Of a DNA stretch of 59,781 nt, positions 39,635 through 46,505 are shown in pieces. The notes under the pieces are model-generated. The model worked only from the letters and a program-made list of their open reading frames with translations. It was not told where the DNA came from and searched no databases. The translations under genes were made by a program, and so were the position numbers. Origin of the DNA: Chloroflexota bacterium (GTDB lineage: Bacteria; Chloroflexota; Anaerolineae; Anaerolineales; Villigracilaceae); assembly GCA_019873655.1 (NCBI GenBank), contig JAIOAU010000018.1, forward strand, positions 1 through 59,781, in the 5' to 3' direction. Within the stretch, counting starts at the first letter, position 1. Each line of letters starts with the position of its first letter.

Positions 39635-40855
39635 ATGAGCGCCTTCCTGCAACTTGCCCTCGAAATCGCCATCATCTTGATCGCCGCCAAACTGGCCGGT
39701 TATTTGAGCAACCGTCTCGGCCAGCCGTCTGTGCTGGGCGAAATCGTGATCGGCATCCTGCTGGGGCCTTCGCTGCTCGATATTACCCACCTGGCCTTCG
39801 TCAGCGACAAGACACTGCCCGAAATCATTCACGAACTCGGCGAAATCGGCGTTTTGCTGCTGATGTTCATCGCTGGCCTGGAATTGCATCTTTCTGAACT
39901 GAGCCGGAACAGGCGGGTGGCCGCCCTGGCAGGCAGTGTCGGCGTCTTGTTGCCCGTCCTGATGGGCTGGGGGACGGGGACTTTGTTCGGCCTGGACTCT
40001 CAGGCCGCGCTGTTCCTCGGCCTGACTCTGGGCGCGACCTCGGTCAGCATCTCGGCCCAAACGCTGATGGAACTCAAAGTGCTGCGCAGCCGCGTCGGGC
40101 TGGGGTTGCTGGGCGCGGCCGTCTTCGACGACATCCTGGTCATCCTGCTCCTGTCCGGCTTCCTGGTGATGAGGAACGAGAGCGCCAGCGCCATCGGGCT
40201 GATCCATATCGTGGGGCGCATGGCTCTCTTCCTGGGCCTCTCGCTGACTTTTGGAATATGGGTCCTCCCCCGCCTGGCGCGGCTGGCGGCTCGTCTGCCC
40301 ATCAGCCAAAGCGTCCTGTCGCTGGCGTTGATCGTCATGCTGCTCTACAGCATCTCTGCCGAGTTGATCGGCGAAATGGCGGCCATCACGGGGGCCTTCC
40401 TGGCCGGGCTGATGTTCGCCCGCACCCGCGAAAAGGAACGGCTGGAAGCCGGCATCCAGGCGCTGGCCTATGGCCTGTTCGTGCCGATCTTTTTTGTCGG
40501 AATCGGGCTTTCGGTGGACCTGCGCCAGATTCAACCCGACGCGCTCTGGCTGACCCTGGCCGTCATCCTGACGGCCATTGTGAGCAAACTGGTCGGCGCC
40601 GGCCTGGGGGCGCGCCTAGGCGGCCTGACCTGGCGCGAGTCCTGGCAGTTGGGCGCCGGGATGGTTTCACGCGGCGAGGTGGGGCTGATCGTCGTCAGTG
40701 TAGGGATTATCGAGGGGATAGTCAGCCAGAACGAATTCTCCGCCATCGTCGGCGTGGTGATTGTCAGCACGCTGGTGACTCCCCCCTTGTTGCGCGCCTT
40801 ATTCAAGAAGAGTCCAGAAGCAAAAGCATTCGAAGATTCAGAGGAGGGCGTCTGA
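39635..40855 (+). CDS. CPA2-type cation:proton antiporter
   Basis: 406 residues with about 12 hydrophobic helices. The N-terminal NRLGQPSVLGEIVIGILLGPSLL and the ELGEIGVLLLMFIAGLEL helix, then the conserved FDDILVILLL (D-D pair), are typical of Kef/NapA-like exchangers. No RCK/TrkA domain is attached; regulation is probably by the PII-like partner directly downstream (TGATG overlap). Moves K+ or Na+ against H+. Confidence 0.9.
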   Translation: MSAFLQLALEIAIILIAAKLAGYLSNRLGQPSVLGEIVIGILLGPSLLDITHLAFVSDKTLPEIIHELGEIGVLLLMFIAGLELHLSELSRNRRVAALAGSVGVLLPVLMGWGTGTLFGLDSQAALFLGLTLGATSVSISAQTLMELKVLRSRVGLGLLGAAVFDDILVILLLSGFLVMRNESASAIGLIHIVGRMALFLGLSLTFGIWVLPRLARLAARLPISQSVLSLALIVMLLYSISAELIGEMAAITGAFLAGLMFARTREKERLEAGIQALAYGLFVPIFFVGIGLSVDLRQIQPDALWLTLAVILTAIVSKLVGAGLGARLGGLTWRESWQLGAGMVSRGEVGLIVVSVGIIEGIVSQNEFSAIVGVVIVSTLVTPPLLRALFKKSPEAKAFEDSEEGV

Positions 40856-41220
40856 TGTACCTCATCCTGTTTGTCCTCAACGACCCCGACAAAGTGGAAC
40901 AAGTACTGAACGCTTGGGAGCAGGCCGGAGTCAGCGGGGTGACCATCCTGCCCAGCACCGGCCTGGGGCGCATCCGCCAGAAGGAAGGCCTGCGCGATGA
41001 CCTGCCGCTGCTGCCCAGCCTGGAAGACTTCTATCATCATGAAGCGGACATCAATCACACGCTCTTTACACTAGTGGAGAGCGAAGCGCTGGCGCAAAAA
41101 GTGCTCGAAGCGACCCAGGCGGTCGTCGGCGACCTCGACCAGCCCGGCAACGGCATCCTGGCCATTCTGCCGACGGTCAAAGTCTATGGATTGATCAAGC
41201 GCAACGGCGCGGCAAGTTGA
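40855..41220 (+). CDS. PII-like signalling protein
   Basis: 121 residues from the ATG at 40855, overlapping the antiporter stop by 1 base. MYLILFVLNDPDKVEQVLNAWEQAGVSGVTIL is the PII-type beta-alpha-beta start, and the end GNGILAILPTVKVYGLIK is the last strand. The T-loop region (LGRIRQKEGLRDDLPLLPSLEDFYHHEADINH) is not the canonical uridylylated type. Such PII-like proteins, like SbtB or KhtT-type regulators, bind nucleotides and gate their partner transporter. Confidence 0.7.
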   Translation: MYLILFVLNDPDKVEQVLNAWEQAGVSGVTILPSTGLGRIRQKEGLRDDLPLLPSLEDFYHHEADINHTLFTLVESEALAQKVLEATQAVVGDLDQPGNGILAILPTVKVYGLIKRNGAAS

Positions 41221-41327: not shown

Positions 41328-41732
41328 ATGAAACCTGTAACCTGGATGTATATCGGAGCGGTCATCCTCTTCCTGATGGCCGCCTGCGGACTCGGCCTCG
41401 GCGGTTTTCTCTACCTCGCTTCGCTGGACCCGGTTCAAGGTCAGTCCTCGTGGGCTACGATGGGGATGGCCCTGGCCTGTCTCGGTCTGATCGTGCTGGG
41501 CGGCGGACTCGCGCTGATCGTTCTGGCCGTCCGCAAGACGAAGCAAGAAACCGCCCAAAACGTCACCCTCAAGGTGGACCTGCCCGGGGAAACCTCATTC
41601 GAAGCGATCAAGTGTAAGTCTTGCGGCGGTACGCTGCACGCCGACGACATCAAAATCGTCAACGGCGCGCCGATGGTCCATTGCCCCTACTGCCAGACCG
41701 TTTACCAATTGACCGAAGAACCGAAGTGGTAA
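41328..41732 (+). CDS. Two-helix membrane protein with C-terminal zinc ribbon
   Basis: 134 residues. Helices at about 8-32 and 45-68, then a cytoplasmic domain with CKSCGG and CPYC, a zinc ribbon, ending VYQLTEEPKW. GGAGG site before the ATG. Lies 60 nt upstream of the Cys-tail protein in the same direction and may belong to that cassette. Function unknown. Confidence 0.75.
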   Translation: MKPVTWMYIGAVILFLMAACGLGLGGFLYLASLDPVQGQSSWATMGMALACLGLIVLGGGLALIVLAVRKTKQETAQNVTLKVDLPGETSFEAIKCKSCGGTLHADDIKIVNGAPMVHCPYCQTVYQLTEEPKW

Positions 41733-41792: not shown

Positions 41793-43475
41793 ATGAAACT
41801 CCGTCTCGCCAGCGCGCTTTTGTTAATGGTGGTGCTTTTCAGCGTCACAACCAGCGCCGCGGCTCAGAACTACTCTTTCCGCTTGTCCCAGGAAATCGTT
41901 CACGTTTTCTGGAACAGCGACGGGACAATGGCCATCGATTACCTGTTCGTCTTCTCCAACGATAGCGGCGCAGCGGCCATTGATTTCGTCGACGTCGGCA
42001 TGCCCAACGGCAATTTCGACCGCGCCAGCATCTCGGCGGACGTAAACGGACAGCCGGTCGCCATTTCCTCGGACTATCAGGGCGGCGGCGCTTACGGGTT
42101 TGCCGTTGACCTGGGCGGCTACGCCATTCAGCCCGGCCAGAGCGGCAGCGTACACGTCTATATTGGGCGCGTCGCGCGCGTGCTCTACACCGATGACGCC
42201 GATGAAAACTATGCCAGCGGCGTCTTCAGCCCCACCTGGTTCGGATCGCAGTTCGTGCATGGCAACACGGACCTGACCGTCGTCTTCCATCTGCCGCCGG
42301 GCGTCCAACCCAACGAGGGCCGCTACCACGAACGCCCGCCGATCGGCTGGCCCTGCAGCAACACGCCCCAGACGTCGCTGGATTCTCAGGGACGCGTCCA
42401 GTACACCTGGGCCTGTCCCAACGCCAACGGATACACGCAATACACCTTTGGGGCGTCCTTCCCCAAACAATACGTTCCCGCTGAGGCGATCGTCAGCCGC
42501 TCCGCTGCTGACTTCGAGAACCTGATCACTGGCCTCCTCAGCAGCCTGGGAGCGATCTTCTTTTTCTGCTGTTTTGGGTTTCTCTTCATCGGCTTGCCCA
42601 TCCTGGGCGTCATCAACGAGCGCAAACGCAAACTGCAATACATGCCGCCAAAAATCTCCATCGAGGGGCACGGCATCAAGCGCGGCCTGACCGCCGTCGA
42701 AGCCGCCATCTTGATGGAACAGCCGCTCGACAAAGTGATGACCATGATTCTGTTCGGCGTCGTCAAAAAGGGCGCCGCCGAGGTCGTTCAGCGCGATCCG
42801 CTCGAATTGAAGATCGCCTCGCCCCTGCCCGAAAATTTGCACGAATACGAAAAGGACTTTCTGGCTGCTTTTGCCGAACCCACCCTGGCCGCCCGCCGTA
42901 AAGCCCTGCAGGAGATGACCGTCAAACTGGTCAAGGCGGTCTCGGACAAGATGAAAGGCTTCAGCCGCCGCGAGACCGTTGACTACTACAAAGCCATCAT
43001 GGAGCGCGCCTGGCAGCAAATCGAGGCCGCCGGCACGCCCGAGGTCAAGAGCGAAATGTACGAGCAGGCCCTCGAATGGACGATGCTCGACAGGGACTAC
43101 GATGAGCGCACCCGCCGCGTCTTCACCGGCCCGGTTTACGTCCCGGGCTGGTGGGGCCGCTTTGACCCGTCTTACCGTCCCGCCTCGATCGGCGGGGGCG
43201 GCGTCAAAGTGGCCGCGCCGACCGTCCCCAGCGGCGGACGCGTCAGCGTGCCCGGCTCGGCCTTTGCCGCCTCGGTCGTTTCCAGCGTGCAGAGTCTCGC
43301 CAGCCGCACCCTGGGCGACATCGGCTCATTTACATCCGGCGTCACCAGCCGCACCAACCCCATCCCCAAGGCTTCCTCCGGCGGCGGACGATGGAGCGGC
43401 GGAGGCGGACACTCCTGCGCTTGCGCGTGCGCCTGCGCCGGTTGCGCCTGCGCCTGCGCGGGAGGGGGAAGATGA
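41793..43475 (+). CDS. DUF2207-like membrane protein with Cys-Ala repeat tail
   Basis: 560 residues. Signal peptide ending TSAAAQ, an extracellular beta-rich part (30-245), one helix (about 250-275), then a cytoplasmic part (GIKRGLTAVEAAILMEQPLDKVMTMILFGVVKKG) like the C-terminal half of DUF2207 proteins. The tail is Gly/Ser-rich and ends CACACACAGCACACAGGGR: seven Cys alternating with Ala/Gly. The Ala codons vary (GCT, GCG, GCC), so the protein pattern, not only DNA repetition, seems kept. The next gene is a PqqD/radical-SAM enzyme, making this tail a candidate substrate. Site AAGGAGG. Confidence 0.75.
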   Translation: MKLRLASALLLMVVLFSVTTSAAAQNYSFRLSQEIVHVFWNSDGTMAIDYLFVFSNDSGAAAIDFVDVGMPNGNFDRASISADVNGQPVAISSDYQGGGAYGFAVDLGGYAIQPGQSGSVHVYIGRVARVLYTDDADENYASGVFSPTWFGSQFVHGNTDLTVVFHLPPGVQPNEGRYHERPPIGWPCSNTPQTSLDSQGRVQYTWACPNANGYTQYTFGASFPKQYVPAEAIVSRSAADFENLITGLLSSLGAIFFFCCFGFLFIGLPILGVINERKRKLQYMPPKISIEGHGIKRGLTAVEAAILMEQPLDKVMTMILFGVVKKGAAEVVQRDPLELKIASPLPENLHEYEKDFLAAFAEPTLAARRKALQEMTVKLVKAVSDKMKGFSRRETVDYYKAIMERAWQQIEAAGTPEVKSEMYEQALEWTMLDRDYDERTRRVFTGPVYVPGWWGRFDPSYRPASIGGGGVKVAAPTVPSGGRVSVPGSAFAASVVSSVQSLASRTLGDIGSFTSGVTSRTNPIPKASSGGGRWSGGGGHSCACACACAGCACACAGGGR

Positions 43476-43508
43476 TTTACGATGGGCGATTGACGATTTA
43501 CGATTTTC
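43474..43508. repeat. Heptanucleotide array 1
   Basis: Five 7-bp units: GATTTAC, GATGGGC, GATTGAC, GATTTAC, GATTTTC; complementary to array 2. Confidence 0.8.
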
Positions 43509-43530
43509 CGAGAAATCTGGAGAAAACTCA

Positions 43531-44898
43531 ATGATTGGATGGCTCAATCGTAAATCGAAAATCGTAAATCCAAAATCCGGCCTCTACCACTACCGCCTCG
43601 AGGGCGCGGACGAAAAGTCCCGCGTCCACCTGCGCCTCGACCCGGACGGCCACGGCACGCTCATCGTCAACGCCAGCCGCGTCCTGCACCTCAACCCGAC
43701 CGCGGCGCGCATGGCCTACCTGCTCCTCGAAGGCCGGAGCCGGGACGAAATCGCCCGCCTCTTCCGCAAAGAATACCACGTCTCCTCCCGGCAAGTCCTC
43801 GCCGACCTGCAGACCTTCGACCAGCAACTCCAGGAACTCCTCCGCCCCGACGGCGCCTGCCCGATTCACGACCTCGACCTGGAGACCGTCGCCCCCTTCT
43901 CGGCGCGTCCCACCGCCCCCTACCGTCTCGACCTGGCCCTTACCTACCGCTGCAACAACGACTGCGCCCACTGCTACAACGTCCAGCATCCGGCTCCCGG
44001 CGCGAACACTGGCGAACTGAACACCGAACACTGGAAACTGGTCCTCGATAAAGCCTGGTCGCTCGGCATCCCGCACATCATCTTCACCGGCGGCGAACCG
44101 ACCCTGCGCGACGACCTGCCCGAACTCATCGCCCACGCCGAAGCCAACGGCCAGATTACCGGCCTCAACACCAACGCCCGCCGCCTCGCCGACCCGAAGT
44201 ATGTCGCCCGCCTCGTCGAAGCCGGCCTCGACCACGTCCAGATTACGCTCGAATCCTCCGACCCCGAAGTCCACAACCAGATGGTGCGCGCCCGCGCCTT
44301 CGACCAGACCGTGCGCGGCCTGCGCAACGCCTTGGCCTCGCCGCTCTTCGTCATGACCAACACCACCATGCTGCGGACGAACGTCCACACCATCCCGGCC
44401 ACGCTCGACTTCCTGGCCGACCTCGGCGTCCCGACCGTCGGCCTGAACGCGCTCATCTACTCCGGGCGCGGCGCGACCGTCGGGACGGGCCTCTCGGAGG
44501 CCGAACTCGCCCCCCTGCTCGAGGTTGCCCGCGCCAAAACCGAAGCGCATGGCCAGCGCCTCATCTGGTACACGCCGACGCAATACTGCAACTTCGACCC
44601 CGTACAGATGGATTTGGGCGTCAAGGGCTGCACCGCCGCCCTCTACAACATGTGCGTCGAACCCGACGGCGGCGTCCTGCCCTGCCAGTCCTACTACCAC
44701 CCACTCGGCAACATCCTGACCGACGACTGGCCGGCCATCTGGGAACATCCTCTCGCCGTCCGCCTGCGCGAGCGGCAAGGTTTGCCGGAGAAATGCAACG
44801 GCTGCCTCCTGCTGGCCGAATGCGGCGGCGGCTGTCCCCTCCAATTCGAAAACGTTCCAACCTTCCAACGCGCAAACGTTCCCACGCTCGACCTCTGA
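43531..44898 (+). CDS. PqqD-domain radical-SAM/SPASM protein
   Basis: 455 residues from the ATG at 43531 (GGAGAA site; the frame is open upstream but that is inside the previous gene). The N-terminal about 100 residues resemble PqqD-type peptide-recognition domains (LIVNASRVLHLNPTAARMAYLLLEGRSRDEIA). Radical-SAM motif CNNDCAHC at 141-148, GGEPTLR at about 187-195, SPASM cysteines in KGCTAALYNMCVEPDGG, LPCQSYY and KCNGCLLLAECGGGC. This is the architecture of PqqE-like enzymes that modify peptides. Directly follows the Cys-tail protein. N- and C-terminal codons lie in heptad repeats. Confidence 0.88.
   Translation: MIGWLNRKSKIVNPKSGLYHYRLEGADEKSRVHLRLDPDGHGTLIVNASRVLHLNPTAARMAYLLLEGRSRDEIARLFRKEYHVSSRQVLADLQTFDQQLQELLRPDGACPIHDLDLETVAPFSARPTAPYRLDLALTYRCNNDCAHCYNVQHPAPGANTGELNTEHWKLVLDKAWSLGIPHIIFTGGEPTLRDDLPELIAHAEANGQITGLNTNARRLADPKYVARLVEAGLDHVQITLESSDPEVHNQMVRARAFDQTVRGLRNALASPLFVMTNTTMLRTNVHTIPATLDFLADLGVPTVGLNALIYSGRGATVGTGLSEAELAPLLEVARAKTEAHGQRLIWYTPTQYCNFDPVQMDLGVKGCTAALYNMCVEPDGGVLPCQSYYHPLGNILTDDWPAIWEHPLAVRLRERQGLPEKCNGCLLLAECGGGCPLQFENVPTFQRANVPTLDL
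43543..43577. repeat. Heptanucleotide array 2
   Basis: CTCAATC, GTAAATC, GAAAATC, GTAAATC, CAAAATC; forms a large inverted repeat with array 1 across the start codon at 43531. Confidence 0.8.
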
Positions 44899-44927
44899 CC
44901 TTCGACTTTTGACTTTTGACTTTCGAC
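44886..44927. repeat. Heptanucleotide array 3
   Basis: GCTCGAC, CTCTGAC, CTTCGAC, TTTTGAC, TTTTGAC, TTTCGAC; includes the stop codon of the radical-SAM gene. Confidence 0.75.
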
Positions 44928-44942
44928 CTCTCAAGGAGACTC

Positions 44943-45284
44943 ATGCCCGACCTTTCCTGGTTCAAAGAACTCCCTCTCGCCATCACCATCTGCGACGCCG
45001 ACGGCATCATTCTCGACATGAACGACGCCGCCGCAGCAGTGTTTCGGGAAGACGGCGGCCGCGCCCTCATCGGCTCCAACGTCCTCGATTGCCACCCCGC
45101 CCCGGCGCGCGGCAAACTGGAACGCATGATGGAACGGCGGGAGAAAAACATCTACACCATCGAGAAGAACGGCCGCAAGAAACTCATCTACCAGACCCCC
45201 TGGTACCGGGACGGCCAATACGCCGGCTTTGTCGAACTCTCGATGGAAATCCCCTTCGACATGCCCCACTTCATTCGGAAATGA
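44943..45284 (+). CDS. Small PAS-domain protein
   Basis: 113 residues from the ATG at 44943 (AAGGAG site). A single PAS domain: LPLAITICDADGIILDMNDAAAAVF at the start and YTIEKNGRKKLIYQTPWYRDGQYAGFVELSMEIP at the end. The conserved DCHPAPAR segment is typical of a small PAS family. Could sense redox state or bind heme or flavin. Encoded between the two radical-SAM-type genes, so probably part of the same system. Confidence 0.82.
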   Translation: MPDLSWFKELPLAITICDADGIILDMNDAAAAVFREDGGRALIGSNVLDCHPAPARGKLERMMERREKNIYTIEKNGRKKLIYQTPWYRDGQYAGFVELSMEIPFDMPHFIRK

Positions 45285-45286
45285 CC

Positions 45287-45342
45287 ATGGACGATGGACG
45301 ATTGACCATCCACCGTCCACGGTCCACCGTCTATCGTCCAAA
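45287..45342. repeat. Heptanucleotide array 4
   Basis: ATGGACG, ATGGACG, ATTGACC, ATCCACC, GTCCACG, GTCCACC, GTCTATC, GTCC; its two halves are partly complementary and could form a hairpin just before the ribosome-binding site at 45342. Confidence 0.8.
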
Positions 45343-45353
45343 AGGAGTACCCC

Positions 45354-46505
45354 ATGTCATCTCTCACCACCTGGCTCCGTGAACGCTTCACCAAGGTTCA
45401 GCCGCTTCCCGCCGAGCACCTGCACTACCAGTCCCCGCCCGGCGACGAACCCGCCTACCGCCTGCATCTGCGCCTCCACCCGGACGGCTCCGGCCTGCTC
45501 ATCGTCAACGCCTCCACCGTCCTGCACCTCAACCCCACCGCCGCCGAGTACGCCTACCACCTGATGAAAGGCACGCCGCCCGAGGAAGTGGCCAAGGAAT
45601 TCGCCCGCCGCTACCGCGTGAACCGGGACACCGCCCTGCGCGACTTCGCCGACTTCCGCGACCGCGTCCAGACCCTCATCCACACCCCCGACCTCGACCC
45701 GGTCACCTTCCTCGACTTCGAGCGCGTCGCGCCCCATTCGGCCGCTCTCACCGCCCCCCTGCGCCTCGACTGCGCCCTGACCTACCGCCTGCCTCCCGGC
45801 GCAAAAGCAGACTACGCCCCCACCAAGCGCGTCGAGCGCGAACTCTCCACCGAGGAGTGGAAGACCATCCTGGACAAAGCCTGGATGCGCGGCATCCCGC
45901 ACGTCACCTTCACCGGCGGCGAGCCGACCCTGCGCGACGACCTGCCCGACCTCATCGCCCACGCCGAAGGGCGCGGCATGGTCACCGGTCTGCTCACCGA
46001 CGGCCTGAAACTGGCCGACAAGGACTACCTGAACACCCTGCTCCAGACCGGCCTCGACCACATCCTCTTCCTGCTCCAGCCCGATGAAAAAGCCTCCTGG
46101 AAGGCTCTGGAGACGATTATGCCGGAGGACATCTTCGTCACTGTGCATCTCACCGTCACGCCGCAGAATGTCAAGAGAGCGGGCGATGTGCTGGAACGGC
46201 TGGCCGGGCTGGAGGTGCGCAGTCTCTCGCTGAGCGCCTCGGACGCCTCGCTCAAAGACGACCTGCTCGCCCTGCGCAACCGCGCCGCCGAACTCGGCCT
46301 GACCCTGCGCTGGGACCTGCCCGTCCCCTACTCGGCGCAGAATCCCGCCGCGCTCGAAGTGGTGGACGAGGAACTCCCCGAAGGCGCGGGCCGGGTCTGG
46401 CTCTACCTCGAACCCGACGGCGACGTCCTCCCCGCCCAGGGCGAACCCGACAAAGTGCTGGGCAACTTCCTGAAAGACCCGTGGGAGAAGATTTACCCCC
46501 GCTAA
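45354..46505 (+). CDS. PqqD/radical-SAM-like protein lacking cluster cysteines
   Basis: 383 residues. Paralogue of the gene at 43531: the PqqD-like part (LLIVNASTVLHLNPTAAEYAY), GIPHVTFTGGEPTLRDDLPDLIAHAE and the end LEPDGDVLPAQ-GNFLKDPW align. The cluster motif is gone: where the paralogue has LTYRCNNDCAHC, this has LTYRLPPGAKAD, and the SPASM cysteines are also missing. It cannot bind the usual [4Fe-4S] cluster and is probably a scaffold or regulatory pseudoenzyme. The precursor-binding domain is kept. Site GGAG. Confidence 0.82.
   Translation: MSSLTTWLRERFTKVQPLPAEHLHYQSPPGDEPAYRLHLRLHPDGSGLLIVNASTVLHLNPTAAEYAYHLMKGTPPEEVAKEFARRYRVNRDTALRDFADFRDRVQTLIHTPDLDPVTFLDFERVAPHSAALTAPLRLDCALTYRLPPGAKADYAPTKRVERELSTEEWKTILDKAWMRGIPHVTFTGGEPTLRDDLPDLIAHAEGRGMVTGLLTDGLKLADKDYLNTLLQTGLDHILFLLQPDEKASWKALETIMPEDIFVTVHLTVTPQNVKRAGDVLERLAGLEVRSLSLSASDASLKDDLLALRNRAAELGLTLRWDLPVPYSAQNPAALEVVDEELPEGAGRVWLYLEPDGDVLPAQGEPDKVLGNFLKDPWEKIYPR

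Follow-up and report, generated by a model that had tools for sequence, protein, structure and literature searches.

A stretch of 59,781 nucleotides from a member of the Chloroflexota (order Anaerolineales; contig JAIOAU010000018.1 of assembly GCA_019873655.1), called the window here, carries four plus-strand genes at positions 41793-46505. These encode a membrane protein with a terminal tail of alternating cysteine and alanine residues (T), a radical S-adenosylmethionine (SAM) enzyme (E), a PAS domain protein (P), and a degenerate paralogue of E (D). The pairing of the tail with E is strongly supported, and it points to an undescribed modification of the inner tail of a membrane protein in lineages ranging from Chloroflexota to Asgard archaea. 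In the explanation that we consider probable, T stays in the membrane and its cytosolic tail is modified by E, perhaps through thioethers between Cys and Ala, with D assisting. An earlier inspection of the letters alone (the sequence-only reading) had proposed a cassette of these four genes, and all are present as it described them: the Cys tail, an active PqqD-radical-SAM/SPASM enzyme, PAS, and a dead paralogue. It missed two further members, the upstream gene Z and the methyltransferase M. Our own hidden Markov models (HMMs) give the operon order Z-T-E-(P)-(X)-(D)-M across loci.

T (41793..43475, plus strand) is a DUF2207-like membrane protein of 560 residues ending in CACACACAGCACACAGGGR. 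Its Cys-Ala tail (43416..43472, plus strand) comprises 19 residues with seven Cys, arranged as CACACACA-G-CACACA-GGGR, and the stop codon comes right after the Arg. A protein similarity search and a tail pattern search covered 298 genomes of the class. In addition, a pattern for CACAGCACACAGGG was run on genome contigs at the DNA level, with no other gene in the query, and yielded at least 119 loci; the tallies of tail loci below refer to the 119 listed (sets of 80 and 39), on fragments of at most 8 kb. A hand-picked T alignment of 28 sequences cannot support a claim that CACAGCACACAGGG is invariant, since every row but that of the window had been retrieved with this pattern; statements on tail conservation rest instead on tails found by homology. 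The tail is present in 29 of the 30 T loci that are best by protein similarity, the window's included; the other (L033) runs into Ns, and the tail of L030 sits on a frameshifted C-terminal piece. Larger fragments gave 42 T open reading frames (ORFs) by homology, of which 33 have Cys-Ala tails, seven have a second tail type, and two are unreadable (L083, a frameshifted N-terminal piece, and L092, which runs into Ns). All 33 readable Cys-Ala tails take the form (CA)n-G-(CA)m-GGGR, with block sizes (n,m) of (4,3) in 15, (5,3) in 7, (3,4) in 7, (3,3) in 2, (2,4) in 1, and (2,3) in 1. When the last 11 codons of these tails are compared in pairs, third positions differ in 58% of comparisons and first and second positions in 3.8%. 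Because third positions vary while the others hardly do, the tail is under selection at the protein level, and the free third-position variation with a fixed protein rules out a microsatellite or other DNA-repeat artefact.

Such a tail might also be an unmodified, metallothionein-like segment that binds metal, in which case E would act on some other product of the operon. The CxC spacing of the seven Cys and the zinc-ribbon-like end of Z would suit this possibility, as would the joint occurrence of T, Z, E, and M, and our gene clustering, which covered ORFs of at least 75 residues, may have missed an independent small precursor peptide. However, metal binding alone does not demand Ala-only spacers, a fixed single Gly, and GGGR, all of which are seen in the homology-found tails, and apart from Z and P no short conserved family stands out in the listed clusters. 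This alternative is quite improbable; spacers that are always Ala are more readily expected of an enzyme substrate than of a segment that simply binds metal.

E and the tail co-occur almost without exception. The tail pattern occurs in 39 of the 298 class genomes, well beyond chance, since the same pattern reversed occurs in one. E, counted as present at 350 bits or more, is found in 43 genomes, including all 39 with the tail. Four of the 259 tail-less genomes have E, and 255 of the 298 have neither tail nor E, giving an association of p ~1e-44 by Fisher's test without correction for kinship. Among 14 sampled genomes of the window's family, nine have both and five have neither. In the tail-only scan, E lies on the fragment in 107 of the 119 loci (71/80 and 36/39). 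The fragment stops near T in three others (L172, L209, and L220), where the contig continues into E, and L170 has its E past D, at a distance of about 3 kb from T. The sequence-only reading had staked its proposal on such tails not being widespread away from radical-SAM genes, and the tail protein and active enzyme indeed form a conserved pair: 111 of the 119 loci carry E either on the fragment itself or no more than about 3 kb away on the contig, and 118 have it in the locus or its genome.

This pairing extends far beyond the class. By title, the bacterial tail loci come from Chloroflexota, Aminicenantes, Fermentibacterota and kin, Acidobacteriota, Zixibacteria, Coatesbacteria, Edwardsbacteria, an actinobacterial lineage, Chrysiogenales, Cloacimonadota, and UBP2, and the Asgard loci come from Hodarch-, Heimdall-, Loki-, and Sigynarchaeota. 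Single lineage assignments may be wrong, because most of the listed records are metagenome bins. Asgard loci show the order T-E-M (L114, L115, L146, and L181) or Z-T (L122 and L161). Tail and E are also both present in the named strains Ornatilinea apprima P3M-1, Bellilinea caldifistulae GOMI-1, Levilinea saccharolytica KIBI-1, Leptolinea sp. HRD-7, and Leptolinea tardivitalis YMTK-2.

Remote T homologues end in a different repeat, ACHSACHSACHSACV..., which is a (CHSA)n tail of Cys, His, Ser, and Ala. Of 16 tails of this type, 15 contain 13 Cys and one contains 11. In L097-L103 an E-type enzyme follows T in all seven, and these enzymes form their own clade (seven rows, support 100) in a radical-SAM tree that retained 65 of 114 rows and was made by a quick method with a midpoint root. 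The sequence-only reading had suggested looking for covariation of tail Cys number; this is weak, as block sizes vary, but the type of tail (Cys-Ala or Cys-His-Ser-Ala) does track the enzyme clade. The one CHSA-type T that was scanned matches Pfam DUF2207 (PF09972) with 31.0 bits against a cut-off of 24.4. It also matches TIGR04222 over its membrane/winged-helix part (expectation value 1.1e-9) with 38.3 bits, under the cut-off of 43. Four Cys-less proteins of this wider kind serve as controls (L267, a paralogue from the window's genome, and L260, L268, and L269) and have plain Gly/Ser ends; no E homologue was found on the contig of L267 or on that of L260. Nine CHSA-type loci also have a downstream zinc-ribbon protein with weak HMM scores of 15-27 bits. 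A coiled-coil protein follows the enzyme in seven loci (cluster 10), and six loci, L097 and L098 included, encode a recurrent protein bearing an HEFQH metalloprotease-like motif (cluster 14).

E (43531..44898, plus strand, 455 residues) is an intact enzyme with a PqqD (RRE) domain, a radical SAM domain bearing CNNDCAHC, and a SPASM domain, and it is the proposed modifier of the tail. Its Pfam matches to PqqD (8e-8), Radical_SAM (5e-27), and SPASM (9.6e-9) are all over cut-off, and both CxxxCxxC and the SPASM motif CX2CX5CX3C are kept in 21 of 21 aligned, hand-picked homologues. E therefore has the features of a radical SAM/SPASM maturase with a fused PqqD domain. The solved structures with the best profile matches are PqqE and SkfB, and the matches include 6c8v, 6efn, 5v1q, and 5wgg, the last of which we take to be CteB. 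Its reaction is not readable from family membership, because E falls under the curated cut-offs of all 25 listed NCBIfam families (75 matched). An ordinary PqqE, ScmE, mycofactocin, or heme-pathway enzyme was rejected on scores far under the cut-offs; for instance, E reaches 125.3 bits against 381.35 for the PqqE equivalog TIGR02109 and 94.4 against 400 for SynChlorMet ScmE (TIGR04250). In one Chloroflexota group (L117, L124, L169, and L199), E lies beside a tailless T-like membrane protein and a divergent M, with T and D nearby on the opposite strand; in L117 and L124, E carries an additional C-terminal Cys/Gly segment, GCSGCSGSCGTGG.

From the pairing, T is very likely the bearer of the substrate of E, in the form of its tail. 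The chemistry is a separate matter. E might act on the tail without making thioethers, by oxidizing, epimerizing, cyclizing, or otherwise altering Cys or Ala, or by readying Cys for S-methylation by M. SPASM enzymes are chemically varied, the scores of E leave its reaction unspecified, and M is present in at least 42 of the 119 tail loci (own HMM, over 150 bits; like those of Z and D, this tally is a lower bound because the fragments are short) and sits directly 3' of E in loci whose E is separated from T (L086, L088, and L265). We nevertheless judge such a reaction unlikely: the profile matches of E include SPASM maturases that make thioethers or C-C bonds, the Cys richness of the tail points to sulfur chemistry, and the anaerobic sulfatase motif CxA/PxR is absent from the tail. 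Thioether chemistry is itself a tentative assignment, given slightly less than an even chance, that would suit the repeat well, since folding back at the single Gly would set each Cys opposite an Ala and thereby permit nested thioethers.

The remainder of T bears on where such chemistry would take place. A signal peptide, an extracytoplasmic beta domain (residues ~25-226), and a single membrane helix (~236-283) are followed by a winged-helix/helical part, a Gly/Ser linker, and the Cys-Ala tail. An AlphaFold2 model from 28 sequences has a mean predicted local distance difference test (pLDDT) score of 81.8 and a predicted template modeling score of 0.45. The last 33 residues (528-560) have pLDDT values below 50, so the tail is probably disordered. 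We infer that the tail is cytosolic, because the distal end of the helix carries the basic residues NERKRK and because the available text of PMC10457818 describes an extracellular N-terminus and an intracellular Gly/Ser-rich C-terminus for the DUF2207 protein SMU.243 of Streptococcus mutans. T would share this topology, and the CHSA-type T that was scanned passes the Pfam threshold for the family. T matches occur in 70 of the 298 class genomes, the weaker ones belonging partly to other tail types. Among 28 Cys-Ala T proteins, one matches TIGR04222 (best expectation value 0.0021), with none reaching the cut-off of 43 bits, and a search of the T sequence against the PDB gave nothing credible (best 0.04).

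Structure searches of the T model (Foldseek and VIA) found that the predicted outer domain (25-226) resembles a lumenal domain of ribophorin I/Ost1 (6ezn_A, Z 16.6, root mean square deviation 2.8 over 183 residues) and, less closely, the N-domains of M1 aminopeptidases. This likeness gives a fold and not a role, and the function of T was not assigned from it. Ost1 of Asgard archaea is described in PMC11417166, as far as its available text goes. T too occurs in Asgard archaea, and a fold in common with Ost1 does not establish common ancestry.

Another possibility is that T is a carrier whose modified tail is cut off as a small product, much as the PqqA and MftA peptides form cofactors. The tail is terminal and on a Gly-rich linker predicted to be unstructured, the profile of E resembles those of PqqE and the mycofactocin maturase, and the HEFQH protein of the CHSA-type loci might provide a protease. 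However, that protein looks secreted and Cys-Ala loci yielded no recurrent cluster of this kind (no protease models were run on their neighbors), conservation across domains of life extends to the rest of T, and the product would be released inside the cell. We regard release of the tail as improbable and retention on T as the better explanation.

D (45354..46505, plus strand, 383 residues) matches Pfam PqqD (2.1e-5) and Radical_SAM (2.5e-10) and appears to be a non-catalytic paralogue of E. The window's D has no CxxxCxxC, no SPASM Cys motif, and a single Cys in the whole protein. Across 24 hand-picked aligned D sequences, CxxxCxxC, the mark of an active radical SAM enzyme, is found in 0/24 and GGE in 24/24, the row of L145 having masked letters beside the site. 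The predicted AlphaFold2 structure has a pLDDT of 85.5, and its nearest folds by Foldseek are SuiB, SkfB, and PqqE. D sequences group together in the tree as a single clade (support 94), and D is present in at least 59 of the 119 tail loci. The sequence-only reading had noted the absence of cluster ligands in this protein; it is nonetheless conserved, which fits a non-catalytic helper, and we lean toward D acting as such for E. A second degenerate enzyme, E2, forms a clade of five rows (support 100) in another Chloroflexota group (L091, L092, L094, L095, and L096). It has lost both CxxxCxxC and GGE and retains the SPASM Cys motif. Because D and E2 lost different motifs, two separate degenerations are suggested, and the two proteins likely decayed independently.

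Several observations weigh against the proposed action of E on the tail. Most generally, co-occurrence alone does not prove it. E lacks a detected tail in G005, G006, G128, and G157 (completeness 85, 93, 93, and 68%); it lies at a contig edge in the latter three and not in G005. One genome (G059) has a CHSA-type E without T upstream and no T match anywhere. In two others (G100 and G173) the operon is split, with Z-T on one contig and E-M on another. Seven of the 119 tail loci (L121, L122, L137, L138, L161, L176, and L207) have E elsewhere in the genome, at 397-484 bits (405 for L207), and the genome of the remaining one, L159, gives only a partial E match of 138 bits. A 97% complete genome of the window's family (G179, locus L084) has an orphan D, and neither T nor E was found in it; it is among the five family genomes counted above as having neither. 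The tail itself varies between two and five units before the Gly and three and four after it, which suits a fixed set of crosslinks badly, and one pattern-found tail ends in GGGGGR instead of GGGR. Finally, Pfam DUF2207 (PF09972/PF20990) matches neither the window's T nor any of the 28 Cys-Ala T proteins, and the window's T has no Pfam match at all.

If E does act on the tail, then the steps might be as follows. T would be exported and anchored with its beta domain outside and its Gly-rich Cys-Ala tail in the cytosol. E would bind T through its PqqD domain and modify the tail by radical SAM chemistry with the help of its SPASM auxiliary clusters, most likely linking Cys sulfurs to Ala carbons. 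As a conserved dead copy of E, D would most likely present or shape the substrate, M would probably add a second modification, such as a methyl group, or act on the same target, and Z may be a small membrane partner that anchors or regulates. The finished tail would then remain on T as a group facing the cytosol, perhaps as a metal or redox site, although we hold a role of that sort to be rather unlikely.

Z (41328..41732, plus strand, 134 residues), the first gene of the conserved operon, has two hydrophobic segments by eye, followed by a zinc-ribbon-like CxxC...CPYC end (...YQLTEEPKW); its database matches are weak zinc-ribbon hits only. By its own HMM, it is present in at least 84 of the 119 tail loci, including the Asgard loci L122 and L161. 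M is a class-I methyltransferase (Methyltransf_11). In the window's genome M is on another contig (G000:C9:33189-33911) and is 60% identical to the M of a relative. P (44943..45284, plus strand, 113 residues) is a lone PAS domain (PAS_4, 7.5e-7) found in 10 of the 119 tail loci, all titled Chloroflexota or members of that phylum. This distribution rules out PAS as a core component and leaves the suggested role as redox sensor of the system unfounded; P is a local accessory. Relatives of the window's family (L064-L071 and others) also have X, a conserved protein of ~335-345 residues with C-terminal hydrophobic segments, located between E/P and D or after M. X matches no Pfam family at an expectation value of 0.01 and was not found in the window. 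By eye, the gaps at 43476-43590 and 45285-45350 are filled by short repeats (GATTTACGATT... and GGACGATTGACCATCCACCGTCC...), one of which appears to extend into the 5' end of the E coding sequence. Upstream, at 39635-41220, an Na+/H+ antiporter-like gene continues directly into one that encodes a P-II-like domain (Pfam P-II, 3.7e-6); the two might be a transporter and its regulator.

Known systems share parts of this arrangement. PqqE, SkfB, SuiB, and CteB, with SPASM and PqqD/RRE domains, resemble E in domain composition and in their cluster ligands. They act on short precursor peptides, whereas the presumed substrate here is the terminal part of T, a membrane protein of 560 residues. On its sequence, therefore, the system would lack the short released precursor by which sactipeptides and ranthipeptides are defined as ribosomally synthesized and post-translationally modified peptides. 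In the His-Xaa-Ser system, HxsA carries C-terminal short repeats and is paired with the radical-SAM enzymes HxsB and HxsC. Its repeat and carrier are different, and E scores 57.7 against the HxsC cut-off of 267.9. A close parallel in layout is a TIGR04222 protein beside a multinuclear iron oxidase (MNIO, DUF692), in which a membrane protein with a low-complexity Gly/Ser, Cys-bearing C-terminus likewise neighbors a modifying enzyme (PMC12452194). That enzyme is an iron oxidase and not a radical SAM protein, and according to the available text of PMC12452194, TIGR04222 tails are predicted to be periplasmic, whereas the T tail is read as cytosolic. The same text reports that one third of genomes with TIGR04222 genes lack MNIO genes, in contrast to the presence of E in 39 of 39 tail genomes here. 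A Pfam/NCBIfam scan found no MNIO among seven window genes, and the neighborhoods were not scanned with MNIO models. In the accessible portions of the open-license PMC literature, the listed papers on DUF2207 do not treat radical SAM enzymes and, among the matches listed, no description of the tail-E pairing was found; subscription papers lie outside that coverage.

Most of what is known of radical-SAM/SPASM enzymes concerns cofactors and natural products made from short peptides. Tentatively, and with a chance somewhat under even, the findings might together describe a post-translational tail-maturation system of many bacterial lineages and Asgard archaea. It would install a lasting sulfur-based group on the cytosolic tail of an integral membrane protein, would have recruited a dead radical-SAM paralogue as helper twice, in separate lineages, and would use a DUF2207-type scaffold for both tail chemistries, Cys-Ala and Cys-His-Ser-Ala. 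If the proposal is true, then these enzymes would also act on a membrane protein that is retained by the cell, in bacteria as well as in those archaea that are most closely related to eukaryotes. DUF2207 proteins, which are widespread and have no known function, would likewise gain a first biochemical handle.

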